This document shows positions 7,291 to 21,638 of a DNA stretch of 59,311 nucleotides, in pieces. The stretch's first letter is position 1, and each line of letters starts with the position of its first letter. The stretch covers positions 1 through 59,311 of the IMG/VR virus record IMGVR_UViG_3300047457_000862; one strand, 5' to 3'. Both the position numbers and the translations under genes were made by a program. The notes beneath the pieces were generated by a model that saw only the letters and a program-made list of their open reading frames with translations, did no database searches and was not told where the DNA came from. The DNA is from a virus.

Positions 7291-8289
7291 TTACGACGCG
7301 GAGTAGTTGGTCGTGATGAGCTCCATCGCCTTAGAGTTCACAACCTTGATCACGCGGTTGCTGCGGACGCGGAGCACCGAACTCCGGCGCTTCTCGTCAC
7401 GGTAGCTCTCGCTGGTGAAGAGACCACCGGGACTGTCTGCGTCCCAAACAATCGTGCGACCCACGCCGCCGTTCATGAAGTCACCATCAGCGAATCGGCC
7501 GATAGCGATGTAATCGTTGCCCCACACGGGAGCGAGATTCGAAGTGAGCCCCTTGGCTGCGAGGTCCACCGACTTCTTGCCGATGACGAGTCGGCTGAGA
7601 CCGAACGCCTGAGCAAACATTTGCTCGGTGATCATCGATCCGCCCTGGCTCACGTTGAGGAAGCCATACACGTAGGTCTGCATCTTCGTCGAGCGACGGA
7701 TCTGATTCCAGAGCGTCAGCGACATGACCACGGTGTCCGGTGGCTCGCCCTTGAGAGTCAGGCGCTCGATGGCCGCATTGATGTCATACGGGCAGTCGAT
7801 CGTCGCGATGAGCGTCTCGGTGTAGTTCACCTTCGGGTTCGTCGCGGTGAACGTGCTGGCGTTCATGATCGTCGCGGCGCACTCCATCTCGTAGTCGAGC
7901 ATCAGGGCGTTGCCGAGCGTCTTGGCCGTAACGACCTCCGCATCGAAGAAGGAAGCCATGCGGCTCGCCACAACATCGTCAACGCGCTCTTCGAGACCGT
8001 ATTCCTCGGTCTGGAAGCTGTCCCATGTGAACTTGCGGTCGATCTCGTTGTAGGTGCCGGTCTGGCCGCGCTTCGTCGAGCTGTTGAAGGTCGAGGCCGC
8101 ACTCGGGTTACGACCCGCGCGAAGCAGCTCGCTCTCCTGCGTGGTGAACTTCGGATAGCGACCGACTTCGGTGGGGCTGTTGTATGTCGGCAACAGAAGA
8201 TTGCCGATATACAGCCCTTCCTGGCCGACTGCCTCCATGAGAACGGTCGAGATGTCCGACCTTGGGATTGAATCAACGGTGTTGAACAT
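7291..8289 (-). CDS. Major capsid protein
   Basis: 332 residues. It follows protease/scaffold and decoration genes and precedes the connector genes and a strong terminator, which is the standard place for the major capsid gene. The sequence has the length and mixed alpha/beta composition of HK97-fold capsid proteins: an N-terminal arm, a long helix-rich segment (residues 95-140), and a C-terminal region ending in a beta strand with RSNRVIKVVN. No Shine-Dalgarno is evident upstream of the ATG. The assignment is by gene order and size; I did not recognise a specific subfamily. Confidence 0.8.
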   Translation of the reverse strand: MFNTVDSIPRSDISTVLMEAVGQEGLYIGNLLLPTYNSPTEVGRYPKFTTQESELLRAGRNPSAASTFNSSTKRGQTGTYNEIDRKFTWDSFQTEEYGLEERVDDVVASRMASFFDAEVVTAKTLGNALMLDYEMECAATIMNASTFTATNPKVNYTETLIATIDCPYDINAAIERLTLKGEPPDTVVMSLTLWNQIRRSTKMQTYVYGFLNVSQGGSMITEQMFAQAFGLSRLVIGKKSVDLAAKGLTSNLAPVWGNDYIAIGRFADGDFMNGGVGRTIVWDADSPGGLFTSESYRDEKRRSSVLRVRSNRVIKVVNSKAMELITTNYSAS

Positions 8290-8313
8290 AGCTTATAGAG
8301 TGAGTGATTGGAC

Positions 8314-9036
8314 TTAGATCGCGGCCTTCAGGACGACGAAGTTGATTGCCATTGCGGCGTTGAGTGCGTTGGACGCGTGGACGTTTGTGATAACCACATC
8401 GAAGGTGCCAGCGGTGACATTCACGACGCTCAGCATCGGAGTTCCCGCACCGTTGTAGGTGGTCGAAAGCGCGATTACGTCGCGAACACCAACGCGGGTG
8501 TTCGTAACCGTGAACCGCTCCTCCGCCGCTGCCGCGGTGGTGAGGGCGACTGTGGTGATGACGCCGGACAAGCCGCTTGCGGTAACTCCGGTCGAAGCGC
8601 TCGTCGCCTGCGTGACGTCGGCACCAGTTCCCAGCGAAGCCCCGCTCGCGCCAGAGAAGAGGATTGCGCGGAACACACCGCCATCCGAGCTGGCAGGAAT
8701 CGCATCGACTGCGATACCGATGACTTCGCCAGCAACGCGTTTCACAACGCGGCCGTCTGTCGGGTCCTGCTCCAGTTCATCGCCCATGGCGATCGCGGTG
8801 CTGTTTCCGCACGTGACGAAGTGGAGGCCATTTCCTGCGGACAGGAAGACGTCGCACGCCATTCCAACCGCGGAACCGGACTCCTTCTTTGCGTTTCCAC
8901 GAAGCAGTGTGCCGATCGGGCGGTCCGTGATGGATGCGCACAGATTGACTCCGGTGCTCGTGAGCTTCACGAGAACATGCTCGTAGGCCGACAGGTCAGC
9001 CGCCACTGGCAGCGAGATTACATTGGATGTGTTCAT
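8314..9036 (-). CDS. Capsid decoration-like protein
   Basis: 240 residues with two parts. Residues 1-120 resemble small capsid-decoration proteins (DUF2190-like pattern: a beta-rich domain with GTLL and AIAMGDELEQDP). Residues 150-240 form a second beta domain rich in Thr, Val and Ala (AEERFTVTNTRVG, then SVVNVTAGTFDVV) like those found on other phage structural proteins. It lies between scaffold/protease and capsid, where decoration proteins are commonly encoded. An AAAGGA ribosome site is 12 bases upstream. Confidence 0.65.
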   Translation of the reverse strand: MNTSNVISLPVAADLSAYEHVLVKLTSTGVNLCASITDRPIGTLLRGNAKKESGSAVGMACDVFLSAGNGLHFVTCGNSTAIAMGDELEQDPTDGRVVKRVAGEVIGIAVDAIPASSDGGVFRAILFSGASGASLGTGADVTQATSASTGVTASGLSGVITTVALTTAAAAEERFTVTNTRVGVRDVIALSTTYNGAGTPMLSVVNVTAGTFDVVITNVHASNALNAAMAINFVVLKAAI

Positions 9037-9070
9037 TGATTGAGAATTTCCTTTGGTTCGAGTTCGTGGA

Positions 9071-9907
9071 TTACGACTGCATCCGGATCACCCGGCGACC
9101 CTGGCTTTGGAGCCAGTCAGCGTGGAGCGCCGCACCACCCGGCTCCTTCATCGCGAAGTGAATGGCATTTGCCTCGGAGCACTTCTGCGTGTCGCGAATT
9201 TCCTTCACGAGCTGCTGGAAGGCATGAAGCTCGCCGTTGCCGTTTGCGGAGAAGAGTCGAACGCCGTTCTCCACGCCAGCCGCTACCGGACGAGTTCCAG
9301 TGTTGAGAGCGATTTCGAGAGCTTCGTTCTCGTTGACGAGGCGCTCGGCAAGCTCGATGGCCTGGTCGCGCTGCGCTGCGAGAGCGGTGATCTTCGACTG
9401 GACTTCACCGAACTGGATATCCTCGGCCACCTGCTGCTCCTTGGCGCGCTGCGCTTGAATCATCGAGCGGAGCTGGATGACTTCGTTGCGGAGTGCGCTG
9501 AATGCAGCACCACCAGCGGATGCGCCAGCAGCGGCTCCAGCACCAGCAGCGGCGGAGCCTTCGGCACCACCGGCTTCGCCGTAGTAGCCAGCGTAGTCGC
9601 CATCGCCCTCTTCGCCGCCAACTTCGCCTTCGCCCTCGCCTTCACCCTCGAACTGCGAGTTGAACTGATCGATGGCCGCGTTCACGTCGTCGCGCGTCAG
9701 GCCGATCTGAGCGAGCTCTTCGTCGGAAGCGTGGTTGAGAGCCTGAAGATCTTCGGGAGTGATTCCGTCTTGATCGGCACCCTGCTCATGCAGAGCGGAG
9801 ATTGCCTGCTCATGCGCGTCGAGGCGCTGATTGAGTCCGTTGATTGCGTTCAGAACATCTGCGATGCTCGGTTCGCCCTGTTGGTTTTGGTTAGTGTTTC
9901 CAGCCAT
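9071..9907 (-). CDS. Possible nested scaffold protein (internal start)
   Basis: An in-frame ATG at 9907, codon 176 of the protease gene, begins M-A-G-N-T exactly where the protease domain ends and the scaffold region begins. It is preceded by the same GTTGACACC / TTTACAGGGC element, at the same 21-base spacing, as independent genes in this operon. Lambda C/Nu3 and many other phages produce free scaffold this way. The expected product is 278 residues. Confidence 0.5.
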   Translation of the reverse strand: MAGNTNQNQQGEPSIADVLNAINGLNQRLDAHEQAISALHEQGADQDGITPEDLQALNHASDEELAQIGLTRDDVNAAIDQFNSQFEGEGEGEGEVGGEEGDGDYAGYYGEAGGAEGSAAAGAGAAAGASAGGAAFSALRNEVIQLRSMIQAQRAKEQQVAEDIQFGEVQSKITALAAQRDQAIELAERLVNENEALEIALNTGTRPVAAGVENGVRLFSANGNGELHAFQQLVKEIRDTQKCSEANAIHFAMKEPGGAALHADWLQSQGRRVIRMQS

Positions 9908-10432
9908 GCCCTGTAAATTGGTGTCAACTGGATTTTCATCACGCGCCCCGAAAAGCCCATCAGCATTTGCTGCGGGCCGTGTTACACAGTCCACTGAGAG
10001 CAGCTTCTCTGCGCGTGCGGCTTTCTTTCCAGGTGCCACTTCGACACCCTGCCCCTTGAATGCCACGGAGAGGCCGAAGCAGTCAGGCATCGTTGCCGCG
10101 CGCTCAAGCATCAGCGGGGTCTCATCATGGTTTTTCAGCAGGTGCCAGTCGCCACGCAGCTTATTCCCGTCCATGCGGAAGTTGGTGACGTAGCCATTCA
10201 TCTTCTCGATGCCGCTGCCGTGATCGAGGTTGACCGGGACCTTGCCGCGCTCCTTCGCGAGCTGGAATAGCTTGCCGACTGTTTCATCGTCCACTTGCAG
10301 GTTGTGACCCTCCGCCTCACAGCCGCATGTAATGAGCGACACGCCCTTGATCACGCAGTCGTTTGCGTCGATGGTTCCCGTCTGTCCCGCGAACAGACCC
10401 TTCTGTTGTAGATGTATGGTTTGAAGTGCCAT
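9071..10432 (-). CDS. Head maturation protease fused to scaffold
   Basis: 453 residues from the ATG at 10432; an upstream ATG at 10486 is possible, but the GTTGAC element sits 22 bases before 10432 and favours it. Residues 1-170 look like a prohead protease: a conserved Asp-His (LDHGSG, near 74-78) and a Ser in a glycine-rich turn (FGLSVAFKG, near 123-130), the His/Ser pairing used by herpes-type/S78-like phage proteases. After a disordered Asn/Gln linker the C-terminal ~280 residues are acidic and glycine/alanine-rich with long helices, as in scaffolds. The C-terminal part probably guides capsid assembly and is then degraded. Confidence 0.8.
   Translation of the reverse strand: MALQTIHLQQKGLFAGQTGTIDANDCVIKGVSLITCGCEAEGHNLQVDDETVGKLFQLAKERGKVPVNLDHGSGIEKMNGYVTNFRMDGNKLRGDWHLLKNHDETPLMLERAATMPDCFGLSVAFKGQGVEVAPGKKAARAEKLLSVDCVTRPAANADGLFGARDENPVDTNLQGMAGNTNQNQQGEPSIADVLNAINGLNQRLDAHEQAISALHEQGADQDGITPEDLQALNHASDEELAQIGLTRDDVNAAIDQFNSQFEGEGEGEGEVGGEEGDGDYAGYYGEAGGAEGSAAAGAGAAAGASAGGAAFSALRNEVIQLRSMIQAQRAKEQQVAEDIQFGEVQSKITALAAQRDQAIELAERLVNENEALEIALNTGTRPVAAGVENGVRLFSANGNGELHAFQQLVKEIRDTQKCSEANAIHFAMKEPGGAALHADWLQSQGRRVIRMQS
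9908..9928 (-). promoter_or_regulatory. GTTGAC start-associated element (inside protease-scaffold gene)
   Basis: GTTGACACC is followed by TTTACAGGGC and ATG at 9907. It is nearly identical to the element before the tube gene although here it is coding (P-V-D-T-N-L-Q-G), which argues for selection at the nucleotide level. Confidence 0.5.
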
Positions 10433-10454
10433 ACCTTGAATGCGGACTGTCAAC
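10433..10454 (-). promoter_or_regulatory. GTTGAC start-associated element (protease gene)
   Basis: GTTGACAGTC, then CATTCAAGGT, abuts the ATG at 10432; 22 bases from first G to ATG. It lies in the 92-base gap after the 1018-residue gene, which otherwise holds nothing recognisable. Confidence 0.45.
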
Positions 10455-10524
10455 GCACCGCCAGTACAGCAGAAACCCTCACGCATCGCGATGGCGACAC
10501 ATGAGGGTCTTGCCTATGAAGAAA

Positions 10525-13500
10525 CTACACGTTGGATGATCCACCGCCCAGAGCGTATCCAGCACCGAGCCCAGCGGCCCCTGCCAGAGATGCTCCGCGC
10601 CATCCACGCAGGCGATACTTCAGATTCGGCCCCGACATCGCCGTTGGCTGCTTTACGGCACCTCCGGCCATTTCTTCGGCCTGCTTCTGTGCCGCCTGCT
10701 GCGCGACAGCCTCCTGCGCTACTGGCTGCTTCGCTACTGGCTGCTGATACGGGGCAGGGTTCACTGGCTGCACCGAAGACCCAGTCTGTCCGACCGGAGT
10801 GTTCCCGTATGAAGCAGCGGTCTTCAGTCTCGGATCTGGAGCGGTCCCTGAATTAGGCGCGATCGGCCGTTCGGCGACTGGCTTTTTGAACGGAGCATTG
10901 CGAGTGGCCTTTCGGGCCTCGTTGAGCTGGCCAGCCAGGTGACTGCGAACCTTTCCGATCGTGTCTGCCCCAGCGAGATCAGCGCGACCCGCTCCTGTCG
11001 CGGCCTGATTGAATGCGCCCTGCACTCCGCGGCCAGCAGCCTCGATCGCATCGAGCTCGGCGCGGGGCGTGCTGACTCCGACCTTCTTCATGGTCCTCAT
11101 CAGGAAATCGCCTTTGGCGAAGTTGATGATGCTGTCGAGCGACTCACGAGCGCCCCAATGAAACTTTCCAGTGTAGCCAGTGGCTCGCAGCTCATCCTTT
11201 TGATAAGCCATCGCCTTCCTTAACTCAGGCAGCTCAGCCCTGAGTCTGTCGGCCAGCATTTTCCTGCTTTTGGCGAATACCGGAACCTTGTTGAACATCG
11301 CCATTTTCTCGTGCTCGGTAACTGGCCAGATCTGACGTATCGCCCTCTCGCCTCTGGCGAACCGAATCTCATCGAGGGACTCACGAGCCGACATGCGAAT
11401 CTTCTTCCCCTTCAGCTTGCGAGCGATCCCGGCCAATGCGCTTTCCTCCTGCTGTGCCACCTGCGCGCCCTGCTTATACACCGTCCCGATGGCTTCTGGG
11501 TCGATTCCGGAGCCATCTGCGCCAGTGAACATGCCAAGCGGGTTGCGTGGGCGTGGATCAGCAAAGCAGATGGCGTTGAGGGATTCACGAGCGGACATAG
11601 CCACGGGGCGCTCTTTGATCGCTTTCATGATCTTCTTCTCGCTGTTATTGGAATCGCGCTTGCTGATACCGTATTGGATAGCTGGAGGAATAACACTCCA
11701 CGCAACGATCTTACGGTTGATCTCCCCTGTCTTCTCTCGGGCAATCTTCCTGCCTTGCTCGATAATTGCCTCTCCGTCGATCCCTGCCATCTTCGCTGCC
11801 GGATGCGCTGCGGTCTTGCGAATAGCCTCTTCAACAGCAGGGGGCATGGTAGCCCCTTCTCCGGTAAAAAACCTGCGCACTGGACCCGGTATCGCCTTGG
11901 CGGCTTTATCACGCCAGCCAAACTCAATAATACTAATCAGCTCCTCCCTTGCCGACATTTCGACGCGACCAGCTTTTCTTATCTTACTTGCCGCACCAGC
12001 GGCGTAGGTTGACCATGCACGGGCAAGCGCCGGAATAGCGTCTTTCCCGAGATGCTTTACCGCCCTTCGGCTCGCATCTGCTTCGATTGCTAGATTCGGA
12101 AGCGATGCGATAACTGCTCCTGCTTTCGTTTTTGTTGGGATCTGCTTCGCGTAATTGGTTCCAGCAAACACAGCAGCAGGAGCATTCTTCGCGATCGCAA
12201 TAGCCTCGTGAGCGGGAACGCCTGCCTTCTTGGCAGCACGGTATGCGAGCACCTTGGCGATTCGAGCCTGCCTTGCGTGCCCTGCCTCATGCGCGATAAT
12301 CTCAGCAGTCGGGGATGATCTCATGGCGCTTCCGCCCGCGCTAGTCCCTGGATTGAAATGGCTGCCGCCCTTTACCGCAGTAATATCGAAGTTATCTGGC
12401 AACTTTCCGCCTGCCACTTCTCGATACATCTCCTTAGCGCGGGCTTTGCTCACTCTCGGGAATGCGGATTTGCCTGTCATAACCCGCTCCTGGATCGCAT
12501 TGAACTTTCCTATTTTCTTTTGAATAACAGGAGCAAGCTCATCTGCTTTTTCCTTGATTCTGTTAAGAAACGAAAGCTCGATAATCCCCTCAAGGATCTG
12601 CCGTGGTTGAGTGTTAATAGTGGATAATCCATAGGTTTTTTTGACGCGAGCCATAGCCTCTTCAGCCGCTTTTCGCTCGCCTGCACTTGATGAGTCTATG
12701 CGGAGCTTTTGGATGTGCCTAAGTTTATGGAGCAACCTCTCTCTTGCAGGACTGGGAATGTGTTCCAGCGACCCCCACTCTGGAGCATGTGGGCTCATCG
12801 CACTGGCAGACTCCTCTCTGACCCTTCTAGCCTGTTCAGCATGTCTAGCCCTGACCTTGTTAATATAATCCCTGCGTCCCGTTGCCCCGAGAGCAGCCCT
12901 GTTTTGCGCATCACGCGCAAGCTGTCCAATCGCTCCAGTGTCTTTACTTGCAAGCAGAGAAGACGCTGCGCCTGTTAATCTGCCAATGCTGGAATTAGCA
13001 ACAGCTCCAGAAACAACCTCGCCTGGAGAAACGGTGTTCGCCCTTCGCGCCGTGTTCGTTGCCCCAGGAGCGGCATATACGGCTATCTCCCTGCCGGATT
13101 TAGCAGCGTTTCCAACCCCGCTGACAACAATGCTTTTTCCGGCCCCTGTGAGTGGCGTGATCGCTGTCCCTATACCGCTGGATCTAATGATCGCTGGCGA
13201 CTTCAGCCCCATCATGCCGTCCGTAATACCACCCCCAACGCGCGGCATTTTTACTCCGGCCCGCCTCCATAGCGGGGTTTTTGTGATGGCCCCGATAGCC
13301 GCCAAGGTAGCTGCGCCAATCGGAACGGCTCTCGCCGTGGCTGCGTTGATCCTTCCTGCCGCATCATCGCCAGACCTGGATGCCGACCTCTCTGCTACCG
13401 CCTGCGCACCGCCCGCAATAGCAGCACCAGCAAGCCCGCCTATTGCGGACTTCTTCAATGTTTCGGCGCGAAGCAGCGCTCCGGCTACGCCACCCAGCGC

Positions 13501-13581
13501 GGCAGCTTTGGCAATACGACGCTCAGGACGCTCTTCATTATTTCCAGTTTGCATATTTGTTGTAAATATCGGTTGCGCCAC
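10525..13581 (-). CDS. Large repeat-motif virion protein with zinc-metallopeptidase domain
   Basis: 1018 residues. The N-terminal ~130 residues contain glycine/alanine-rich membrane-like segments. Near 431-435 is H-E-A-G-H, preceded by AEIIA and followed about 65 residues later by E-A-D-A-S (500-504), the layout of YugP-like neutral zinc peptidases. Beyond residue 540 a short motif recurs four times: [MG]-(S)-A-R-E-[ES]-L-x(2)-I-x-F, with the Phe at 554, 673, 741 and 821. The C-terminus has a QPVAKQPVAQEAV-type low-complexity stretch and ends in a glycine-rich hydrophobic segment. It lies between head-joining genes and the protease. It may be an internal or ejected virion protein, perhaps cut at the repeated motif; both ideas are inference. 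Confidence 0.75.
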   Translation of the reverse strand: MAQPIFTTNMQTGNNEERPERRIAKAAALGGVAGALLRAETLKKSAIGGLAGAAIAGGAQAVAERSASRSGDDAAGRINAATARAVPIGAATLAAIGAITKTPLWRRAGVKMPRVGGGITDGMMGLKSPAIIRSSGIGTAITPLTGAGKSIVVSGVGNAAKSGREIAVYAAPGATNTARRANTVSPGEVVSGAVANSSIGRLTGAASSLLASKDTGAIGQLARDAQNRAALGATGRRDYINKVRARHAEQARRVREESASAMSPHAPEWGSLEHIPSPARERLLHKLRHIQKLRIDSSSAGERKAAEEAMARVKKTYGLSTINTQPRQILEGIIELSFLNRIKEKADELAPVIQKKIGKFNAIQERVMTGKSAFPRVSKARAKEMYREVAGGKLPDNFDITAVKGGSHFNPGTSAGGSAMRSSPTAEIIAHEAGHARQARIAKVLAYRAAKKAGVPAHEAIAIAKNAPAAVFAGTNYAKQIPTKTKAGAVIASLPNLAIEADASRRAVKHLGKDAIPALARAWSTYAAGAASKIRKAGRVEMSAREELISIIEFGWRDKAAKAIPGPVRRFFTGEGATMPPAVEEAIRKTAAHPAAKMAGIDGEAIIEQGRKIAREKTGEINRKIVAWSVIPPAIQYGISKRDSNNSEKKIMKAIKERPVAMSARESLNAICFADPRPRNPLGMFTGADGSGIDPEAIGTVYKQGAQVAQQEESALAGIARKLKGKKIRMSARESLDEIRFARGERAIRQIWPVTEHEKMAMFNKVPVFAKSRKMLADRLRAELPELRKAMAYQKDELRATGYTGKFHWGARESLDSIINFAKGDFLMRTMKKVGVSTPRAELDAIEAAGRGVQGAFNQAATGAGRADLAGADTIGKVRSHLAGQLNEARKATRNAPFKKPVAERPIAPNSGTAPDPRLKTAASYGNTPVGQTGSSVQPVNPAPYQQPVAKQPVAQEAVAQQAAQKQAEEMAGGAVKQPTAMSGPNLKYRLRGWRGASLAGAAGLGAGYALGGGSSNV

Positions 13582-14281
13582 TTCCGACCTGACCAGAGAT
13601 ACCTCCGGGAATAATCCCGGCGTATGCCCCCGCGCCAGCGCCTATGGCGGCGATATTACGAACATCCCTCCAGCCTCCAATCCTCATTCTGGAACCAGCT
13701 CGAAGCATCCCCGCGATCGCCCCGCGCACCCCACCCTTCTTGGGCGATGCAATGCGGTGCGCCAGCTTGGTCATTGCGCGACCCGTAGCACCCGGCCGCT
13801 TCAGGCCAGCTAATGCGGCACCCCCGGCAAGCGCAGCGCCAATACCAGCGCCCCCTCCCACGTATTTGAGCGTTTGAACAAGAGCATGTTTAGATGCTTC
13901 ATTCTGTGCCTGAGCACGGAGTTCCGGTTTGGCTACGTTTGCTACTGCTGTTGGGTTTCCGGACTGCAATCGCGCCCAGTAGTCGGTCCTTCGTTGTTCT
14001 ATGCGGTTCAGTTTGTCTTCAAACGAGATAATTGATGTGTTCATAATTGATTGGAATGATTGGTTTCTGGAGCGGTTTGCTTTCTTGGATGTCACGCGGA
14101 GGTTGCTCGGTGCGTTGTTTGACGGATTGCGATCCTTGTGGTCAACGTCTTTGCCGTCGCCCTTCTTCACCCTGCCCTCTTTAACGAGTAAACGGCGTGC
14201 AGCATTTCGCTTTGCACGCCGTTTGACTTGTGAAGGTTTGGAGTGGTAGTCGCGGTACTCTTTGGCGTAGTCGCGAGCCAT
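13538..14281 (-). CDS. HNH domain fused to a repeat-motif membrane-like virion protein
   Basis: 247 residues. Residues 1-75 are basic and contain an HNH pattern (D-V-D-H-K-D at 45-50, with N-N-A-P-S-N-L about 6-12 residues on), as in small phage HNH nucleases. From residue 80 a new segment starts with its own Met (codon at 14044): M-N-T-S-I-I-S-F-E-D-K, which matches the repeated short motif of the neighbours, followed by two glycine/alanine-rich hydrophobic stretches. The second part may also be made alone from 14044. Its 3' end overlaps the next gene by 44 bases. Confidence 0.65.
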   Translation of the reverse strand: MARDYAKEYRDYHSKPSQVKRRAKRNAARRLLVKEGRVKKGDGKDVDHKDRNPSNNAPSNLRVTSKKANRSRNQSFQSIMNTSIISFEDKLNRIEQRRTDYWARLQSGNPTAVANVAKPELRAQAQNEASKHALVQTLKYVGGGAGIGAALAGGAALAGLKRPGATGRAMTKLAHRIASPKKGGVRGAIAGMLRAGSRMRIGGWRDVRNIAAIGAGAGAYAGIIPGGISGQVGSGATDIYNKYANWK

Positions 14282-14287
14282 GGCTGA

Positions 14288-14740
14288 TTACTTTCCGCGC
14301 AACCGTGCGATCAGCTTTGCAACCGCGCCGCCTGCCGCCGCGACACGACCCCTTCCGAGACGCTGACCGACCTTTGCTCCGCTCCCCCACTCTCCGAGTC
14401 TCGCTTCACGGTAGTCGCCTGCGACTTTTCCAGCCTGCGACTTGAGGCTTTCATAATCACCGGGAAGGGCGCGATAACCGGCTTTGATCTTGTCTCCGAC
14501 GCTACGGACCCGATTCATCGCTCCGGGTCCACGCTCTGAGCCGCCCCAGTCATTCCACACCTTTGAGCCCCTGGCGTACAGAGCGCCGGTGCCAGCTACG
14601 CCTGTCACGCCTGCTCCGATCGCGAGATTGCGCCCGAGATTGGATTCATCCTCGTCTCCGTACCGAGAGAAGTTGATTTCCAGCGCCTTGTCGGCAATAG
14701 CGTTGAGTTGAACGAGGCGGTTAATGCGATGATTGCTCAT
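14288..14740 (-). CDS. Small repeat-motif virion protein
   Basis: 150 residues. The N-terminus reads like a single unit of the neighbouring large proteins: an R-L-x-x-L helix followed by L-E-I-N-F-S-R-Y-G-D-E (Phe 24) and then a glycine-rich hydrophobic segment (LAIGAGVTGVAGTGAL). The rest is basic, ending in LIARLRGK. It is probably a paralogue or module of the 1427-residue protein encoded just upstream. No ribosome site is evident. Confidence 0.65.
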   Translation of the reverse strand: MSNHRINRLVQLNAIADKALEINFSRYGDEDESNLGRNLAIGAGVTGVAGTGALYARGSKVWNDWGGSERGPGAMNRVRSVGDKIKAGYRALPGDYESLKSQAGKVAGDYREARLGEWGSGAKVGQRLGRGRVAAAGGAVAKLIARLRGK

Positions 14741-14791
14741 AATGGTGTGTTCTTGATGATTCTGAATTACACTGTGGGTACCGATGTCAAC

Positions 14792-17700
14792 TCACAGAAC
14801 ATCGTCCAGCAGCGACGAAAGAGCGATGAGGTCTTTGGTGACTGAGGACATCCCCATGGCACGCCGCTTCGCCCCCTCCGCAATCCCCTCCCGGAGCTTG
14901 TCGGCATAGACCGATCTATCGCCGGTCACTGCGGCCCCCGCGCCCCCGCTCGTCCTGCTGCCAGCGGCTCGCCCACCCTTATGAAGTATCGCCATCAGGC
15001 CCATTCCACCCAGCCAAGATGCTGTCATCTTCGCTGGAGTGACGACCGTATCCTGCCAGTCCTTGCGCTCAAGCAGCTTCTTCTCGCGACGCTCACGGCG
15101 GCGGATGTCCTTCAGGAGAACGAGATCGCCCTCCCTGCGGGTATCCCAGCCAGGGGCGCGGTCTTCGTTGGAGATGAAGTGGATGATGCCCCGGCCCTTG
15201 CTCCGTGCGCTGAATTTACCTTCGATGATCTTCCCGTATTTCTTGACCGCATCCTGCTGGTCCTTCGCGACCTTTGCTGCCTCGATTGCAGTAGCCGCCT
15301 CGTCTCCGGCGGCACCGCGAGCTGCGGCTTTCTTAGCCTCCCTACGAGCTGCTGCGTTTCGCCTGACCCATGCCAGGCCACGCCCGGCAATGCCCGATTG
15401 ATTCACGGCAGACGCCGCCTCGTTCACGGCGTCATCGGTATATCCCGTGATGGCATTGTAAGCCTTAGCCAGTCGCGGCATCTTGTGCGTAAGAGCATCT
15501 CGGAGCTCCCCGCTTTGAACTGCATCCCTCCAGCCTGAAATCACTGTCCCCTCCCCGGTGCCCTTCACTATGCGGCGGCTTGCGAGCGCACCGCCAGTCA
15601 GAATTGTCCCGAGGATCGCATTGCGAACCCACGGCTTATCCCATTCACGCTGACGCTCGCGGCCACGGCTATCGACGTTCTTCTCACCCTTGACTGCGCG
15701 AATCACGTCTTTCGCAAGACGAGTGCCGCGCTTTCCTGCGACGATTGCCTTGTTCGCGAATATGCGGCCTTTGCGCCATTCCTTCGAACCTTCCGGATTA
15801 CGCAGGAACTCAGGATCGGTTTCAATGTCCTCCTCGTCACGGAACTGAATTGTTTTGAGCTTTGAGTTCATAAGTAGATTTGCACCGATCAGGCCAGCGC
15901 CAACGAGGCCAGCGATCTTCGCGGCTTTCTTGGCGTTCTTCGCTCCGACATTAAAGCGGTTCGCGACCCCGCGGACGCGATTGATCCCCTTGTGCGCTGC
16001 CAGAGCGCCAGCACCAAGGGCTGCGGCTTTCCAAGGAATCCCCTCGGCGCGCTTTCCTTCGCGGGTGCGCTCGCCATACATATCCTTCCCTGCTTCTGTG
16101 CGGGTCCGAATCAGCGGCACGAGCAGAGCGCCAGCACCAGCACCAGCAGCGGCTCCGCGACGGCCCTTCATAACCCCGCCGAGCGCAGCGCCAGCAAGCA
16201 TTGTCCGCATGATGTTCGCATCACGGCGGTCAAGGTCTTCATCCTGGATCCTCTTGCGATAGCGGTCTGCCGCCAGCTTTCCGCTCAACGGAGCCTCTGC
16301 GAACCGAATCTGACGAACCTTACTGGACATCTTAACTGGCTTCTTGAGGTTGCGAAGCGTGTCAGCCTGCTGCCCCTCGTCTGCCATCTGAGCGGCACCA
16401 GCGAGCGTTCCCACAGCGCCCCCAATCAGAGCGCGACGAGCCGAACCTCCATTGCCCATCGCGGCGATCGGTATCCAGTTCTTGTTCCGGCGCACCAATC
16501 CGGCCGCCTTCTTGGTCAGGCCGAACACAGCGAGCTTCTTCGGGTCAGCCCCGGCGAGCGCCCCGAGCGCAGCTCCACTGAGCCCGCCGACGACCGCGCC
16601 ACCGACCGCGCCACTCTTCGTAGCAGATGCGGCATCACGCTTATCCGGCTTTCCGAGAATAGCCCGTCCTACGAGGCTCGACGCAAGACCCGCAGCGCCC
16701 ATGAAAGCACCAGCCTTGAACGCGGCCTTGCCGATTCGATTGAACTGTTTGCGAAGCGGTGCGGCCTTTGGAGCAGGCCCTCCTTTGCGGAACGCATTCC
16801 CATCGCGAGGACGAAGCAGCGATGCTACGATTCCACCGCCAGCAGCTCCGGTCACAGCAGAGCTGATCGCCATGCGCTTCGCGTCGTCGTATTCACCACG
16901 CTCGAAACGTAGTTGCTTCTGCTTCGACTTGTTCTCGCCTGCTTCACGCATCGCACTGCTTCCGAGCGCAGCCCCGCCAACAAGGCCAGCTCCAGTTCCG
17001 ATTGCAACGTGTTTATAGCGACGACTCTGCTCGTCATACATTTGCTTGGCGTGCTGCTTACCGAGCTTATCAGCAAGAGACTCCCTAGCCCCCTCAACGG
17101 CGCTGCTAATCCTATCCTCTGATTTGATTCGAGCAGCCTCAGCGGCCCGCGCTTTTGCCTCTGCGCTTTCGACCGCGATGCTCGCCCCGTAGTTTTCTTC
17201 GAGAAGCCTGCGGTTCTCCCTGCGAAGAGCAGCCGCCTCATTCTCGACTCGCCCAAGGTTCTCGGTCACGTCTTCAATAACCATTGGTCGCTCAGCAACC
17301 TTTTCCTTCTTAGGGGGCGCTGTCTTGACGGACTTCACCCTGCCTTTTTTGTATGGCACATGCTTCCCTGTTGGAGACGAACCACTATAACCAGGAATGC
17401 TGCGCGTGGAAAACCCCTCTGCGATGTCATTCACATCTAGCACACTCTTCGGACTTGAAAAGGTATCGCGCAAATCCTCAATGCTTTCCTGCACGCCCGC
17501 GTATTCCTCCTTAACGCGCTTCCTGCGAAGGCGCATCATGTCCGCAGCGGTTTTAGCCATACTCTTATTTTTCTTTGCCTTCCACTTTGAAAAACCTGGC
17601 CTTACCCTCACGAGATCTCCGATATGCGGCCCGTTTTCTGCCAGTTGCTTCTCGATCTCTTTTCTCAGACTTGGAAACATATCCTTCAGCCTATCTCCGC

Positions 17701-19075
17701 GAGCGAACTGGAAAGCGGTGCCCGTAGCAGACATGAGCATCTTGCGCTGCTCATCTTCCTTCTTGCGACCAGACAAAGCCTTTGCAGCAAGAACACCACC
17801 ACCGATCAGTCCGGCTGCGATCCCAATCTTCTTCAGCGTAGGGTAGCTGGTCCTAGATACATCAGGCATCTTTCCTTTCCATCCTTTCGGACGGCCCCCG
17901 CTTGCGAGCGCCTCCGCTGCTGCCGTGGGGTTGAATGCTGTGCGCTTTGACCCACCTTTCCATGGAATAGCCGCGTTCTTACCAGCCTCGACCTGAGTAA
18001 TATACTCAGGCACGTTGGATGGGTTTTTGAGGTAGTTCAGCTTTTCGCGAACTTCATCAACCCGGTTCGCATCAATACCAAGTCTGTGCGCCACCTCTGA
18101 GCGCATTTTATCACGTTGCTGTATGCGGATATTCCGAGCAGCCTCGCTCGGCAGCGCACTGACTCCAGACGTGGTTGCTTTTCCAGTAATATCCTGATCC
18201 GACTTCATCAAATTCTCGAAAGCATCCAGCGTATTGCGCTGCGCGGTAGGCAGGTCCTCTCCTAGCGCCCTACCGACCACAACCCCTCGACTCTTCATAT
18301 CATCCTCTATCGCCGCAGCGCGAGCGCGTATCTTCTGAAATCCCTCGTCCATCATGCGCCGATCCGCAATATCGTACTTTCTCCGTACCGCCTTCAGCTC
18401 CTTTTCTTGAGCCGGGGTCAGATCGTATGACAGTCGCGATTTTCCTGTGTATTTTCCGCTTTGGGATTTAACACCTCCGGTACGCCAGTCTCCATCGCGT
18501 TTCTTTATCTCCCTGACAAGGTTTCGGTTGATGACCGCCTGTGCGGCAAGTGCGCGACGAGCCTCGCTGTGCTTCTTTTCAAGGAACTTAGATCCAGCCC
18601 TCTGTAAAAACGAAGGGGCGTCCGGCTTCCCGGTTTGTTTGACTTCGATACCAATGAGAGCGTGCTTGAGTCGCTTCTTATCGATGAGCGGGGCTTTCGG
18701 GTATTGGCCTTCAGCGACCCGAACCAGAGGCTCCGCTCCTTTTTCTGTTCTCACATACCTGCCTCCACCCATCACCTCATAATTCTCGACCTTCTTCTGC
18801 CTCCAGAGCTTAGGGTTATCTACGCGCTCTCCACCCTTCCAGATTTTCATCGGCTGCTTCTTGCGCATGATCTCCTCCTCGCTCACGCGCTTGCGCTCCT
18901 CGGTAACGGCCCCGTGAAGCTCTCGGCCGAGCGCAGAATCAAGCGGGACCCCCATAGCATCTCCAGCTACGAGAATCTTCTTCGACATCACCCCCGGCTT
19001 CGCGAACATGAGCAGCCGCGAGATCGAGCTATTGAGTCGGAACAGGTGGTTTTTTGAGATTGGCGCGTGTGACAT
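14792..19075 (-). CDS. Giant modular repeat-motif virion protein
   Basis: 1427 residues, the largest protein here. It alternates basic or charged helical stretches with at least seven glycine/alanine-rich hydrophobic segments (around 416-436, 690-710, 737-753, 786-806, 820-842, 955-990, 1052-1070). A short motif ending in I-x-F-[AE]-x-G-[DE] recurs with Phe at 24, 457, 724, 925, 1078 and 1300, several copies lying just before or after a hydrophobic segment. There is a coiled-coil region near 600-680. It resembles a tandem array of modules like the 150-residue neighbour. It may be an internal ejection protein or a polyprotein matured by the head protease; I know no named family. Confidence 0.7.
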   Translation of the reverse strand: MSHAPISKNHLFRLNSSISRLLMFAKPGVMSKKILVAGDAMGVPLDSALGRELHGAVTEERKRVSEEEIMRKKQPMKIWKGGERVDNPKLWRQKKVENYEVMGGGRYVRTEKGAEPLVRVAEGQYPKAPLIDKKRLKHALIGIEVKQTGKPDAPSFLQRAGSKFLEKKHSEARRALAAQAVINRNLVREIKKRDGDWRTGGVKSQSGKYTGKSRLSYDLTPAQEKELKAVRRKYDIADRRMMDEGFQKIRARAAAIEDDMKSRGVVVGRALGEDLPTAQRNTLDAFENLMKSDQDITGKATTSGVSALPSEAARNIRIQQRDKMRSEVAHRLGIDANRVDEVREKLNYLKNPSNVPEYITQVEAGKNAAIPWKGGSKRTAFNPTAAAEALASGGRPKGWKGKMPDVSRTSYPTLKKIGIAAGLIGGGVLAAKALSGRKKEDEQRKMLMSATGTAFQFARGDRLKDMFPSLRKEIEKQLAENGPHIGDLVRVRPGFSKWKAKKNKSMAKTAADMMRLRRKRVKEEYAGVQESIEDLRDTFSSPKSVLDVNDIAEGFSTRSIPGYSGSSPTGKHVPYKKGRVKSVKTAPPKKEKVAERPMVIEDVTENLGRVENEAAALRRENRRLLEENYGASIAVESAEAKARAAEAARIKSEDRISSAVEGARESLADKLGKQHAKQMYDEQSRRYKHVAIGTGAGLVGGAALGSSAMREAGENKSKQKQLRFERGEYDDAKRMAISSAVTGAAGGGIVASLLRPRDGNAFRKGGPAPKAAPLRKQFNRIGKAAFKAGAFMGAAGLASSLVGRAILGKPDKRDAASATKSGAVGGAVVGGLSGAALGALAGADPKKLAVFGLTKKAAGLVRRNKNWIPIAAMGNGGSARRALIGGAVGTLAGAAQMADEGQQADTLRNLKKPVKMSSKVRQIRFAEAPLSGKLAADRYRKRIQDEDLDRRDANIMRTMLAGAALGGVMKGRRGAAAGAGAGALLVPLIRTRTEAGKDMYGERTREGKRAEGIPWKAAALGAGALAAHKGINRVRGVANRFNVGAKNAKKAAKIAGLVGAGLIGANLLMNSKLKTIQFRDEEDIETDPEFLRNPEGSKEWRKGRIFANKAIVAGKRGTRLAKDVIRAVKGEKNVDSRGRERQREWDKPWVRNAILGTILTGGALASRRIVKGTGEGTVISGWRDAVQSGELRDALTHKMPRLAKAYNAITGYTDDAVNEAASAVNQSGIAGRGLAWVRRNAAARREAKKAAARGAAGDEAATAIEAAKVAKDQQDAVKKYGKIIEGKFSARSKGRGIIHFISNEDRAPGWDTRREGDLVLLKDIRRRERREKKLLERKDWQDTVVTPAKMTASWLGGMGLMAILHKGGRAAGSRTSGGAGAAVTGDRSVYADKLREGIAEGAKRRAMGMSSVTKDLIALSSLLDDVL

Positions 19076-19101
19076 CTTACCCTGAAGGCGAAGATGTCAA
19101 C
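19076..19101 (-). promoter_or_regulatory. GTTGAC start-associated element (1427-residue gene)
   Basis: GTTGACATCTT is followed by TTCAGGGTAAG and ATG at 19075; spacing is 26 rather than 21. The upstream stop lies 3 bases before the element. Another GTTGACA copy follows the stop of the same gene at 14786-14791. Confidence 0.4.
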
Positions 19102-19104
19102 GGT

Positions 19105-19860
19105 TCAGAGTTTCTGCACTTTCGCGAGAATCTTGCGCTTTCCCTGACGGAGAATGGCGTTCACCCGATGGTTCCCGTCCTTCAGAACATACACCCCATG
19201 GCCAAGGTGGCTCACCACCGGAGGCGGGAGGTTCTTTTTCCGGGCCATCTTGCTGACCTTGCCATTGTCGATTCCCCACTGCGGGCTCACGATGGAGCGG
19301 ATGCGGACCATGCGCTCCTTGCCCTCTCCGATGCGGTGAATGCCTGGCTTTACTCCCTTTCGGAAGATTGGGTTCTCGACTCGCTCGAACTGGATGGCGG
19401 GGAGGAGGGAGGAAAATACCGTGGCACCAGCCGCAAGCACCTGACTTGGCTGTCTGGTTCGATCCAACGCCCAGTCAAGATGGCCTGCATACCACTTTTC
19501 CGCTTGCTTCTTGTACGGCTCGACCATATCCGGCGACATCCTGCGGACAGCCGCTCGGTTGGCCATCCTCTCGCCCAATAACTTCCATCGGATGCGCTTG
19601 TCTCCTTGTGATTTCTGAAATCTCTCCACCGGGCGCTGTGCGGCGTGATGACCCGCCTCGTGATGTAGCGCGAATACAGGATGTTCGCGCCCTACCTCGA
19701 TCCCGCCGATAGGATTCTCGAATGTTCCTGGTCGATAGTAACCAGATGTAGCTTCCTTTGTCCGCGTGACTGGCAACCCCTGCCTTTTGAGGTCCCGGAG
19801 CAAACTTTTTGTGTTCCCGAGCCATCCAAACTGGATCAGATCAATGATTTGCCTGCTCAT
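19105..19860 (-). CDS. HEAGH metallopeptidase-like protein with ParB-like C-terminus
   Basis: 251 residues. It begins with one copy of the neighbourhood motif (M-S-R-Q-I-I-D-L-I-Q-F-G-W). H-H-E-A-G-H-H at 66-72 is a zinc-metallopeptidase signature. The C-terminal ~70 residues end with V-L-K-D-G-N-H-R-V-N-A-I, the sulfiredoxin/ParB-like nuclease signature. It overlaps the portal gene by 4 bases. It may be a virion-associated processing or nicking protein. The joint presence of both folds is unusual; either could be structural rather than catalytic. Confidence 0.65.
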   Translation of the reverse strand: MSRQIIDLIQFGWLGNTKSLLRDLKRQGLPVTRTKEATSGYYRPGTFENPIGGIEVGREHPVFALHHEAGHHAAQRPVERFQKSQGDKRIRWKLLGERMANRAAVRRMSPDMVEPYKKQAEKWYAGHLDWALDRTRQPSQVLAAGATVFSSLLPAIQFERVENPIFRKGVKPGIHRIGEGKERMVRIRSIVSPQWGIDNGKVSKMARKKNLPPPVVSHLGHGVYVLKDGNHRVNAILRQGKRKILAKVQKL

Positions 19861-21638
19861 TTCTTCTTCGGTGGCTGGTTGGATTCTGGAGCGTGCTCGC
19901 CTTCCGGAGTGAGCCCGGCTTCGCGATTCAAATCTTCGGTGGTCGGCTCCTGCGGAACGATCTTCTCGGCCTCGCCCTGCGGAAGCCCGAACACCTGCAT
20001 GAGCGTCTGGATGGCGCTGTCGCGGTCCATCTTCCCCTCTCCGACCGCAACGAGAATATCCGTGAGCTGCTTGACCCCCTTATCTCCGATCGCCTGAATG
20101 CTGACCGGAGGCGGCGGCGGCTGCGGGGTCGGAGACAGATATGCGGCCTTCTGCGCTGTGATGTCCGAGTAGAGTCCGCGAGCGAACACCTCCGCAGGCA
20201 GTCCGGCTTTGGCCCCTTCCGAGATTGCCGTGTTGGCAGCCTGAGCATTTGACTGGAACACCTCCTGCGGTGTGTAGCCATACTTGGATGTGACGTCGGA
20301 CACGGGAAAGATCCCTGTCTGGACACCATGAATGTCGTTCTGCATCTCGTATCCGGCATCCGTGGTGATCCACGGGCCGAAGTGCCATGCCGAGTTGAAC
20401 TGCCCCGGGCTCGCCGGAATCTCCTTCCGAGCAACTCCGAATGCGATCACCTTGTTGCGGATTCGGGTGAGGATCTTCTGGACGATGATGTTGTTCTGCC
20501 AGCCCTGAATCGTGCGGAGGTCGCCCTGAAGCTCGATGCGCTGCGAAACGCCCCCAAGGCTCGCGAGATCCCACAGGAAGCCGTAGGACAGCTTCATGGA
20601 GTGCGCCATGCGCCGGATGAGGGTCTGGACGAACACCATTGTCGAACCCGATGGACGGGCGGAAGGAGTGACCATCTGGAACATCTCGCCCTCACCCATC
20701 TTGAGGATCTTGCCCCATGCGGCCTCCTGCGATGGAGTACCCGCCGCCGTCTTGCCATCCCAAGCGCCGGGTCCAGTATTTGTGAATGGGTCTTTCGTGC
20801 CAACCAGTGCAGTGAACTGACTCTGCGCCTTCATGGAGACCTTCTCTGCGTCGATCCACTCCTTGATGTCGCGAGCGTCGTTCAGTAGACGCAGCAGCTT
20901 CGTTCTACCACGGTATTCATCCCCAGCCTCGGGATCGAACACGTGAATGAAGGCCCGTGGCTCCACCTCGCGCTTATCGACGTACTGGTTGTTCTTCGTG
21001 CGGCGGAATGTGCGATAGCTCACCACCCGTCCGGTCAACGGGTCGATCGTAATACCCCCGATGTAGTTCTCGTTCGTGTCGGACTCCTGCGGGTTGCCGA
21101 TCCTGTCCGCGCTGATCAACTGAACACAGAACTCCCCGTTCGGAGAATACGCAGGATCGACTTCGACGATGCCGCTGTCTCCGTCCACAAGGAACCCAGT
21201 GAACGCGAGCTGCACGAGCTTCGAGAAGCGGTGCCTTCCAGTGATGTCGCAGCGAGTCGTTCCATCCTGTGCTGGCAAGTCCCCGCACCATCCGTGGAAG
21301 TAGTCGTCGTAAATCTTGTTCAGCTCCGGATCACCGGAGTTCGCGTGGTTCGTGATCGTGCCGCACACGTAGTTCACGATGCGTCCGATTACACCGCCGA
21401 TCCACTGATACTGGCACAGGTCCCGGGCATCCCACATCGCCTTGATGCGATCGCGGTTTGCCAGCGAAGTTTCACGCCCTGCGTTCTGGCTCTGGCCGCC
21501 GCTTCCTCCGCGGTGAGTTGAATTCGGGTTATATCCGGTCGAGAACGCCACTTCACTGAACCGAGGATTGAAAACGGTGACGATATTGCCCTGGCCGTCA
21601 TACAATCCCTGCCCTGCTGCGAGTTTGATATCCTTCAT
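19857..21638 (-). CDS. Portal protein (lambda GpB-like)
   Basis: 593 residues, the usual size for lambda-type portals. The N-terminal half has the expected pattern: Y-N-P, then N-R-D-R-I-K-A-M-W-D-A-R-D-L, the G-F-L-V-D-G-D-S-G clip region, and a long helix (LLRLLNDARDIKEWIDAEK). The C-terminus is proline-rich and acidic. Twelve copies would form the DNA-packaging vertex, docking with terminase. It is translationally coupled to the gpW-like gene upstream and to the metallopeptidase-like gene downstream by ATGA overlaps. Confidence 0.9.
   Translation of the reverse strand: MKDIKLAAGQGLYDGQGNIVTVFNPRFSEVAFSTGYNPNSTHRGGSGGQSQNAGRETSLANRDRIKAMWDARDLCQYQWIGGVIGRIVNYVCGTITNHANSGDPELNKIYDDYFHGWCGDLPAQDGTTRCDITGRHRFSKLVQLAFTGFLVDGDSGIVEVDPAYSPNGEFCVQLISADRIGNPQESDTNENYIGGITIDPLTGRVVSYRTFRRTKNNQYVDKREVEPRAFIHVFDPEAGDEYRGRTKLLRLLNDARDIKEWIDAEKVSMKAQSQFTALVGTKDPFTNTGPGAWDGKTAAGTPSQEAAWGKILKMGEGEMFQMVTPSARPSGSTMVFVQTLIRRMAHSMKLSYGFLWDLASLGGVSQRIELQGDLRTIQGWQNNIIVQKILTRIRNKVIAFGVARKEIPASPGQFNSAWHFGPWITTDAGYEMQNDIHGVQTGIFPVSDVTSKYGYTPQEVFQSNAQAANTAISEGAKAGLPAEVFARGLYSDITAQKAAYLSPTPQPPPPPVSIQAIGDKGVKQLTDILVAVGEGKMDRDSAIQTLMQVFGLPQGEAEKIVPQEPTTEDLNREAGLTPEGEHAPESNQPPKKK

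Follow-up and report, generated by a model that had tools for sequence, protein, structure and literature searches.

Five consecutive proteins encoded between the portal and the capsid gene of a phage (IMG/VR virus record IMGVR_UViG_3300047457_000862, positions 1 to 59,311; these 59,311 nucleotides are called the window below) share a short motif, [LM]-S-[AS]-[KR]-x(0-3)-L-D-x-[IL]-I-[EQ]-[FL]-[AGS], in which leucine may stand for phenylalanine. Stand-alone cargo proteins have the motif close to their N-terminus and long ones have it between their modules, and cargo modules are permuted, fused or split between related phages, with breakpoints at the motif. We propose that it is a head-loading leader for ejected cargo, similar in action to the capsid targeting sequence (CTS) of T4, and at the same time a cut site of the prohead protease; we give this reading a probability of roughly one half (0.52). 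A wider proposal is made tentatively, at somewhat less than even odds: a polyprotein system of the phage head with a reiterated loading-and-cutting element of new specificity (I-[EQ]-F↓small, the arrow marking the cut), in which enzymes, including a DNA ligase, are added, lost and reordered as cassettes.

The motif in the window and in related phages

A 13-column profile was built from 40 copies in relatives only, with the window and its near twin, G001, excluded. At a threshold of at least 8 bits, the profile has 12 matches in the five window proteins, where residue-preserving shuffles give 0.53; in the remaining 68 genes or open reading frames (ORFs) of the window there are five matches versus 3.3 in shuffles, which is chance level. 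The motif is real and occurs far above chance.

All copies listed in the initial annotation are present at the positions and with the residues given there, and nine of them are strong (at least 8 bits). All copies are encoded on the minus strand. The strong ones are F11 of the 251-residue protein (SRQIIDLIQFG, 19825..19857, 14.2 bits), F24 (19001..19036, 11.7 bits, N-terminal), F925 (16298..16333, 12.1 bits), F1078 (15839..15874, 20.1 bits) and F1300 (15173..15208, 10.6 bits) of the 1427-residue protein, and F554 (11917..11958, 11.6 bits), F673 (11560..11598, 8.6 bits, followed by a DPRPRN module), F741 (11356..11394, 15.6 bits) and F821 (11116..11154, 18.6 bits) of the 1018-residue protein. 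Three further copies had been missed: F158 of the 251-residue protein (FSSLLPAIQFE, 19384..19419, 15.2 bits), L336 of the 1018-residue protein (12571..12606, 9.4 bits) and L1419 of the 1427-residue protein (14816..14851, 8.3 bits), the last with another copy, truncated to LSSLLDDVL, behind it at the C-terminus, as is also the case in G001. Two listed copies reach 7-8 bits: F457 of the 1427-residue protein (17702..17737; the G001 orthologue reads LIELARMDR) and F24 of the 150-residue protein (14666..14701). The remaining two stay below 7 bits and are doubtful if taken alone, namely F724 of the 1427-residue protein (QLRFERG, 16901..16936; L-x-F is kept in G001) and Met80-F87 of the HNH-fused protein (14018..14044). 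The tail RG[DE], part of the motif as originally outlined, is present in some copies only.

Two additional candidate sites were considered. The N-terminus of the portal protein, at most a possible site, reads V-A-F-S in the window, but its spacing varies and I-x-F is missing in most relatives. I-Q-F-G at residue 359 of the scaffold was not counted, as it lies within a predicted long helix and is replaced in G009 and G006.

Relatives were collected via the portal protein (nine, later more) and via the capsid protein (80 loci, down to about 33% identity). In three phages outside the training set there are 32 matches of at least 10 bits upstream of the capsid gene versus 0.68 in shuffles, and none downstream. 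In 18 distant phages (33-44% capsid identity), 22 copies upstream compare with 4.3 in shuffles and three downstream with 4.8: the motif extends to distant relatives, though not to all. Searched with a degenerate nucleotide pattern that encodes LS[AS]KLDx-I-[EQ]-F-[AG], 2.9 million viral contigs had only three matches, all within this phage family; equal frequency in unrelated proteins, by which the motif was originally to be judged, was thus found neither in the DNA search nor in the profile scans. A second DNA pattern matched one contig, which was judged a chance match because of its unrelated tail genes. Within cargo proteins, placement is biased towards the start: 15 of 36 have a motif within 35 residues of the N-terminus (7.6 expected).

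Cargo modules and their breakpoints

The proteins had been thought to be assembled from one module; instead, one and the same short joint connects different domains. The modules that can be recognised are HEXXH peptidase-like and ParB-like ones, a DNA ligase with a LigD phosphoesterase-like domain, glycine-zipper segments and the DPRPRN module. The 251-residue protein (19105..19860, minus strand, as are all genes of the head block) reads motif, HEAGH peptidase-like module, motif, ParB-like module (a hint from phrog_1033, E 0.01), with both modules weak by profile. The 1018-residue protein (10525..13581, five motif copies) has an HEAGH metallopeptidase-like module between copies 336 and 554 (11923..12573; Zn_peptidase_2 with E 3e-5, below the Pfam cut-off). 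HEXXH is invariant in four phages and modules of this type recur in the cargo of several; an AlphaFold model of the peptidase module was unusable, with a predicted local distance difference test (pLDDT) score of 48. Glycine/alanine-rich, membrane-like hydrophobic segments, said in the initial annotation to be flanked by the copies, occur in four of the five motif proteins, and the proximity holds for two: the 1427-residue protein (14792..19075, glycine-zipper segments and six to seven motif copies) and the 150-residue protein (14288..14740, N-terminal motif and a glycine-rich membrane-like segment) have several such segments 5-26 residues away from a copy.

The permutation is visible at several levels. 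Segments 559-659 and 678-727 of the 1018-residue protein match residues 324-420 and 255-304 of a G001 protein, in swapped order and with motifs at each edge. The giant proteins of G004 and G009 have five common segments in different order, and the last segment of the G004 protein is a separate gene in G002. The ParB-like module, led by the motif, forms the end of the 251-residue protein in the window, the end of the giant protein in L019 and the start of a ligase fusion in G004 and G009, and its homology begins at the F158 copy in five other phages. After masking of the motifs, BLAST placed 30% of internal homology ends at most 15 residues from a motif, in comparison to 16% with equally many displaced sites masked (0 of 60 nulls).

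The ligase fusion of G004 is a 546-residue protein with a DGNHR ParB-like module, followed by LigD_N-like and DNA ligase OB domains. Three loci (L006:17617-19257, L038:2996-4957 and L009:9412-11328) have, within the head block, a ParB-like module that the motif connects with a LigD phosphoesterase-like domain and an ATP-dependent DNA ligase. The fusion is a candidate for a packaged ligase.

Cut site, docking site or both

Sequence preferences around the motif were analysed in copies from the window, G001 and phages outside the training set; only columns -10 to 0 were used to choose them, which fixes F or L at position 0. Of 81 copies, 68 have I at position -2 and 53 have E or Q at position -1. 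At position +1, which had no part in the selection, 46 of 80 copies have A, G or S (57% versus a background of 29%, p=8e-8), and there is no preference for small residues at positions +2 to +8. A small-residue preference that stops so sharply is the pattern of a protease site. Two proteins, one from L003 and one from L050, have the putative P1 residue as their very last residue. Judged from these sequences, cleavage probably takes place at the motif, after F/L.

A protease that could perform such cuts is predicted next door. The 471-residue protein (9071..10486) has an N-terminal domain with a histidine (H70, in DHG) and a serine (S121, in G[LM]S.AFK) that are invariant in seven phages and may be catalytic, followed by a coiled-coil scaffold. 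Its AlphaFold model was compared by Foldseek, and the first 22 matches are herpesvirus proteases with E-values of 0.02-0.19; as all are above 0.001, the assignment relies on the agreement of the top ranks. In a second structural comparison of the same low-confidence model with the PDB, T4 gp21 is on top (Z 7.5 over 124 residues), followed by herpes proteases. The low-confidence model thus suggests a prohead protease of the T4 gp21/herpes type fused to a scaffold. The gene is present in every record whose block covers this part, with the exception of G003, in which the match was limited to a scaffold-like segment. An invariant GLF-[SG] follows the protease domain and LF-[SAG]-A is found near the scaffold end; both are placed like the release and maturation sites of herpes proteases and share F-small, but P3/P2 differ and the likeness is no more than suggestive. 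After the protease domain there is also a Met-Ala that is invariant in seven phages (position 9907 in the window; L020-L025) and may be an internal start of a scaffold-only product; a nested scaffold-only start is known from lambda C/Nu3.

An independent hint of head localisation comes from five relatives, in which the giant cargo protein opens like the capsid protein of the family (VFNTTESVPRAEG versus MFNTTDSVPRADI; FNTTESVPRAE versus FNTTDSVPRAD). The likeness spans about the first dozen residues (L017:14978, L016:7557, L006:11814, L009 near 5729 and L019:3620); the protein sequence is kept while most codons differ. An all-frame scan of the loci found the capsid-like stretch only at the N-termini of capsid and giant cargo proteins; the 1427-residue protein of the window is without it. 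The stretch is possibly an arm that docks to the shell or scaffold.

Of the readings offered in the initial annotation (a protease site, a peptide for docking, or a polyprotein divided into pieces for ejection), a combination fits best. We favour a bipartite element, a docking stretch plus a cut, because of the module shuffling, the preference at +1, the neighbouring gp21-like protease, the N-terminal placement and the mimicry of the capsid N-terminus. The amphipathic stretch [LM]-S-[AS]-[KR]-x-L-D-x-[IL]-I would bind to the prohead core or scaffold and take the attached module into the head during assembly. The prohead protease, whose gene lies downstream, would then cut between F/L and a small residue (I-[EQ]-F↓[AGS]) and free the metallopeptidase-like, ParB-like, DNA ligase and glycine-zipper membrane modules for ejection with the DNA. 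With a leader on its N-terminal side, each module could stand alone or be strung together with others and reshuffled. Head localisation, docking partner, cleavage and ejection are what we infer from the sequences.

Several observations weigh against this reading. About 40% of copies have no A, G or S at +1, and the C-terminal copies that are truncated before the F (LSSLLDDVL, LSVKLDYLIS) are explained by a docking role only. The major capsid protein has no cut site and I-Q-F-G of the scaffold is not conserved in all relatives. The proteases of T4 and phiKZ cut after Glu, while the putative cut here is after Phe or Leu. No sequence library labels the 471-residue protein a protease, and its model has a mean pLDDT of 52. 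Finally, the phages are uncultivated and known here from their sequence alone.

The main competitor is docking alone: an uncut short linear motif that has scaffold, portal or capsid shell as its binding partner, with the giant proteins packaged and ejected whole, as the virion RNA polymerase of N4 is packaged unprocessed. The conserved upstream stretch and the hydrophobic spacing fit a binding helix, F and L interchange freely, and the truncated C-terminal copies are readily accommodated. Such a motif would not be expected to prefer A, G or S at +1 with nothing beyond, and modules that are both free and fused, as well as the presence of a gp21-like protease, also speak against it; we regard docking alone as possible, though rather unlikely. 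Cutting in cis by the cargo's own HEXXH metallopeptidase modules, with the motif as their recognition site, would agree with the recurrence of these modules and with the processing proposed for polyvalent proteins (PMC5512222). The examined cargo of the motif-rich phages G004, G007 and G009 has no HEXXH, and a prohead protease accompanies the block almost throughout, which makes this explanation improbable.

Many internal copies start with Met and a 641-residue protein of L041 begins exactly at the motif, as if the copies were functionless relics of the start regions (M-S-A-R...) of once separate genes that were fused by chance. Conservation at 33-44% capsid identity, the strict I-x-F and the preference at +1 require selection, and stand-alone genes keep the motif too; a relic is therefore very improbable. 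Internal translation starts at the motif Met were considered and proved uninformative, as real gene starts are also without Shine-Dalgarno signal. A chance or low-complexity likeness of these Ala/Gly/Lys-rich proteins, compositionally biased as they are, is practically dismissed by the shuffles (0.5 versus 12 in the window, 0.7 versus 32 in unseen phages).

Known systems and neighbouring genes

The cargo proteins fit published polyvalent proteins, which are encoded by phages and conjugative elements and for which injection with the DNA and polypeptide processing have been proposed (Iyer et al. 2017, PMC5512222). Common features are the large multidomain architecture, the position beside portal and head genes and the metallopeptidase, ParB-like and DNA-acting domains. 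Disparate domains are united in one polypeptide (the 546-residue protein of G004 and the 251-residue protein of the window, the latter with two modules weak by profile), and the cargo genes lie between the portal and the protease/capsid genes; injection with the DNA would be predicted here too. In contrast to the present family, a short element at every domain joint is not described in the accessible part of that account, the cutters proposed are mainly metallopeptidases acting in cis, and DNA ligase with LigD phosphoesterase-like cargo is not among the proteins described there (PMC5512222).

The comparison with the T4 CTS refers to how the element may work and not to membership. T4 CTSs are N-terminal propeptides of 10-20 residues, and the cuts made by gp21, a member of the herpes-protease family, follow L/I-x-E and in gp22 precede Ala (PMC9026906). 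Shared would be the short N-terminal leader (here on putative internal proteins), the aliphatic P3, the cut before a small residue (Ala in gp22) and, by the low-confidence model, the fold of the protease; the position corresponding to the E is F or L here, and T4 has one leader per small protein, whereas the element described here occurs up to nine times within one protein (PMC9026906). In phiKZ and SPN3US, many ejected head proteins carry propeptides in which one short motif is the cut site, in some cases more than once, as would be the case here; that motif is S/A-x-E and lies in propeptides, not at the joints of shuffled modules, and these are giant myophages with other genes (PMC5694885, PMC7411985). 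DarB of P1, a 250-kDa head protein, has an N-terminus of which 30 residues suffice to bring a reporter into the head, similar to the N-terminal targeting proposed here; repeated copies are not described (PMC9024508). The initial annotation knew of no system like this one. Polyvalent proteins and the targeting sequences of T4 and P1 are clear precedents; the open full-text literature, which was partly accessible and includes few subscription journals, yielded no account of a single short element that recurs at each joint between modules.

The motif offers an explanation of the way in which polyvalent proteins might enter the head, be divided and exchange their modules, and it suggests a new prohead-protease specificity. 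It can serve as a sequence tag for spotting ejected cargo without known domains in uncultivated phages, and a head-loading peptide that can be moved from protein to protein would be useful for filling capsids with proteins.

The order on the minus strand is portal, 251-residue, 1427-residue, 150-residue, HNH-fused 247-residue, 1018-residue, 471-residue and 240-residue protein and major capsid protein, and this order suggests that the cargo proteins of the window are virion proteins. The block starts with the portal protein (593 residues, 19857..21638; Phage_portal_2 with E 6e-34, phrog_21) and reaches to the major capsid protein (7291..8289; phrog_1005, E 2e-25), which has neither the motif nor an obvious propeptide. 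The 1427-residue protein has no match among 50,697 phage records, and a prophage search for the host, with portal and capsid profiles against genome contigs, found no relative. The Shine-Dalgarno signal at the gene starts of the head block (window 7291-21638, minus strand) is not above that of random internal ATGs, which may be a clue to the host.

Three observations concern variants of the block. Two loci (L003:20438-21352 and L013:20135-21382) have an ORF, judged by eye to be GIY-YIG-endonuclease-like, that separates the cargo genes from the protease gene. The portal protein of L004 (L004:9917-12271) is extended at its C-terminus by a stretch that contains a motif copy (MTARLDRIIQFG) and a tail rich in Pro and Val. 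The 247-residue protein of the window (13538..14281) consists of an HNH domain (HNH_3, E 1e-8) and a glycine-rich cargo segment; an HNH domain heads different cargo proteins in two other phages (L002:17982 and L055:1703) and could itself be cargo.

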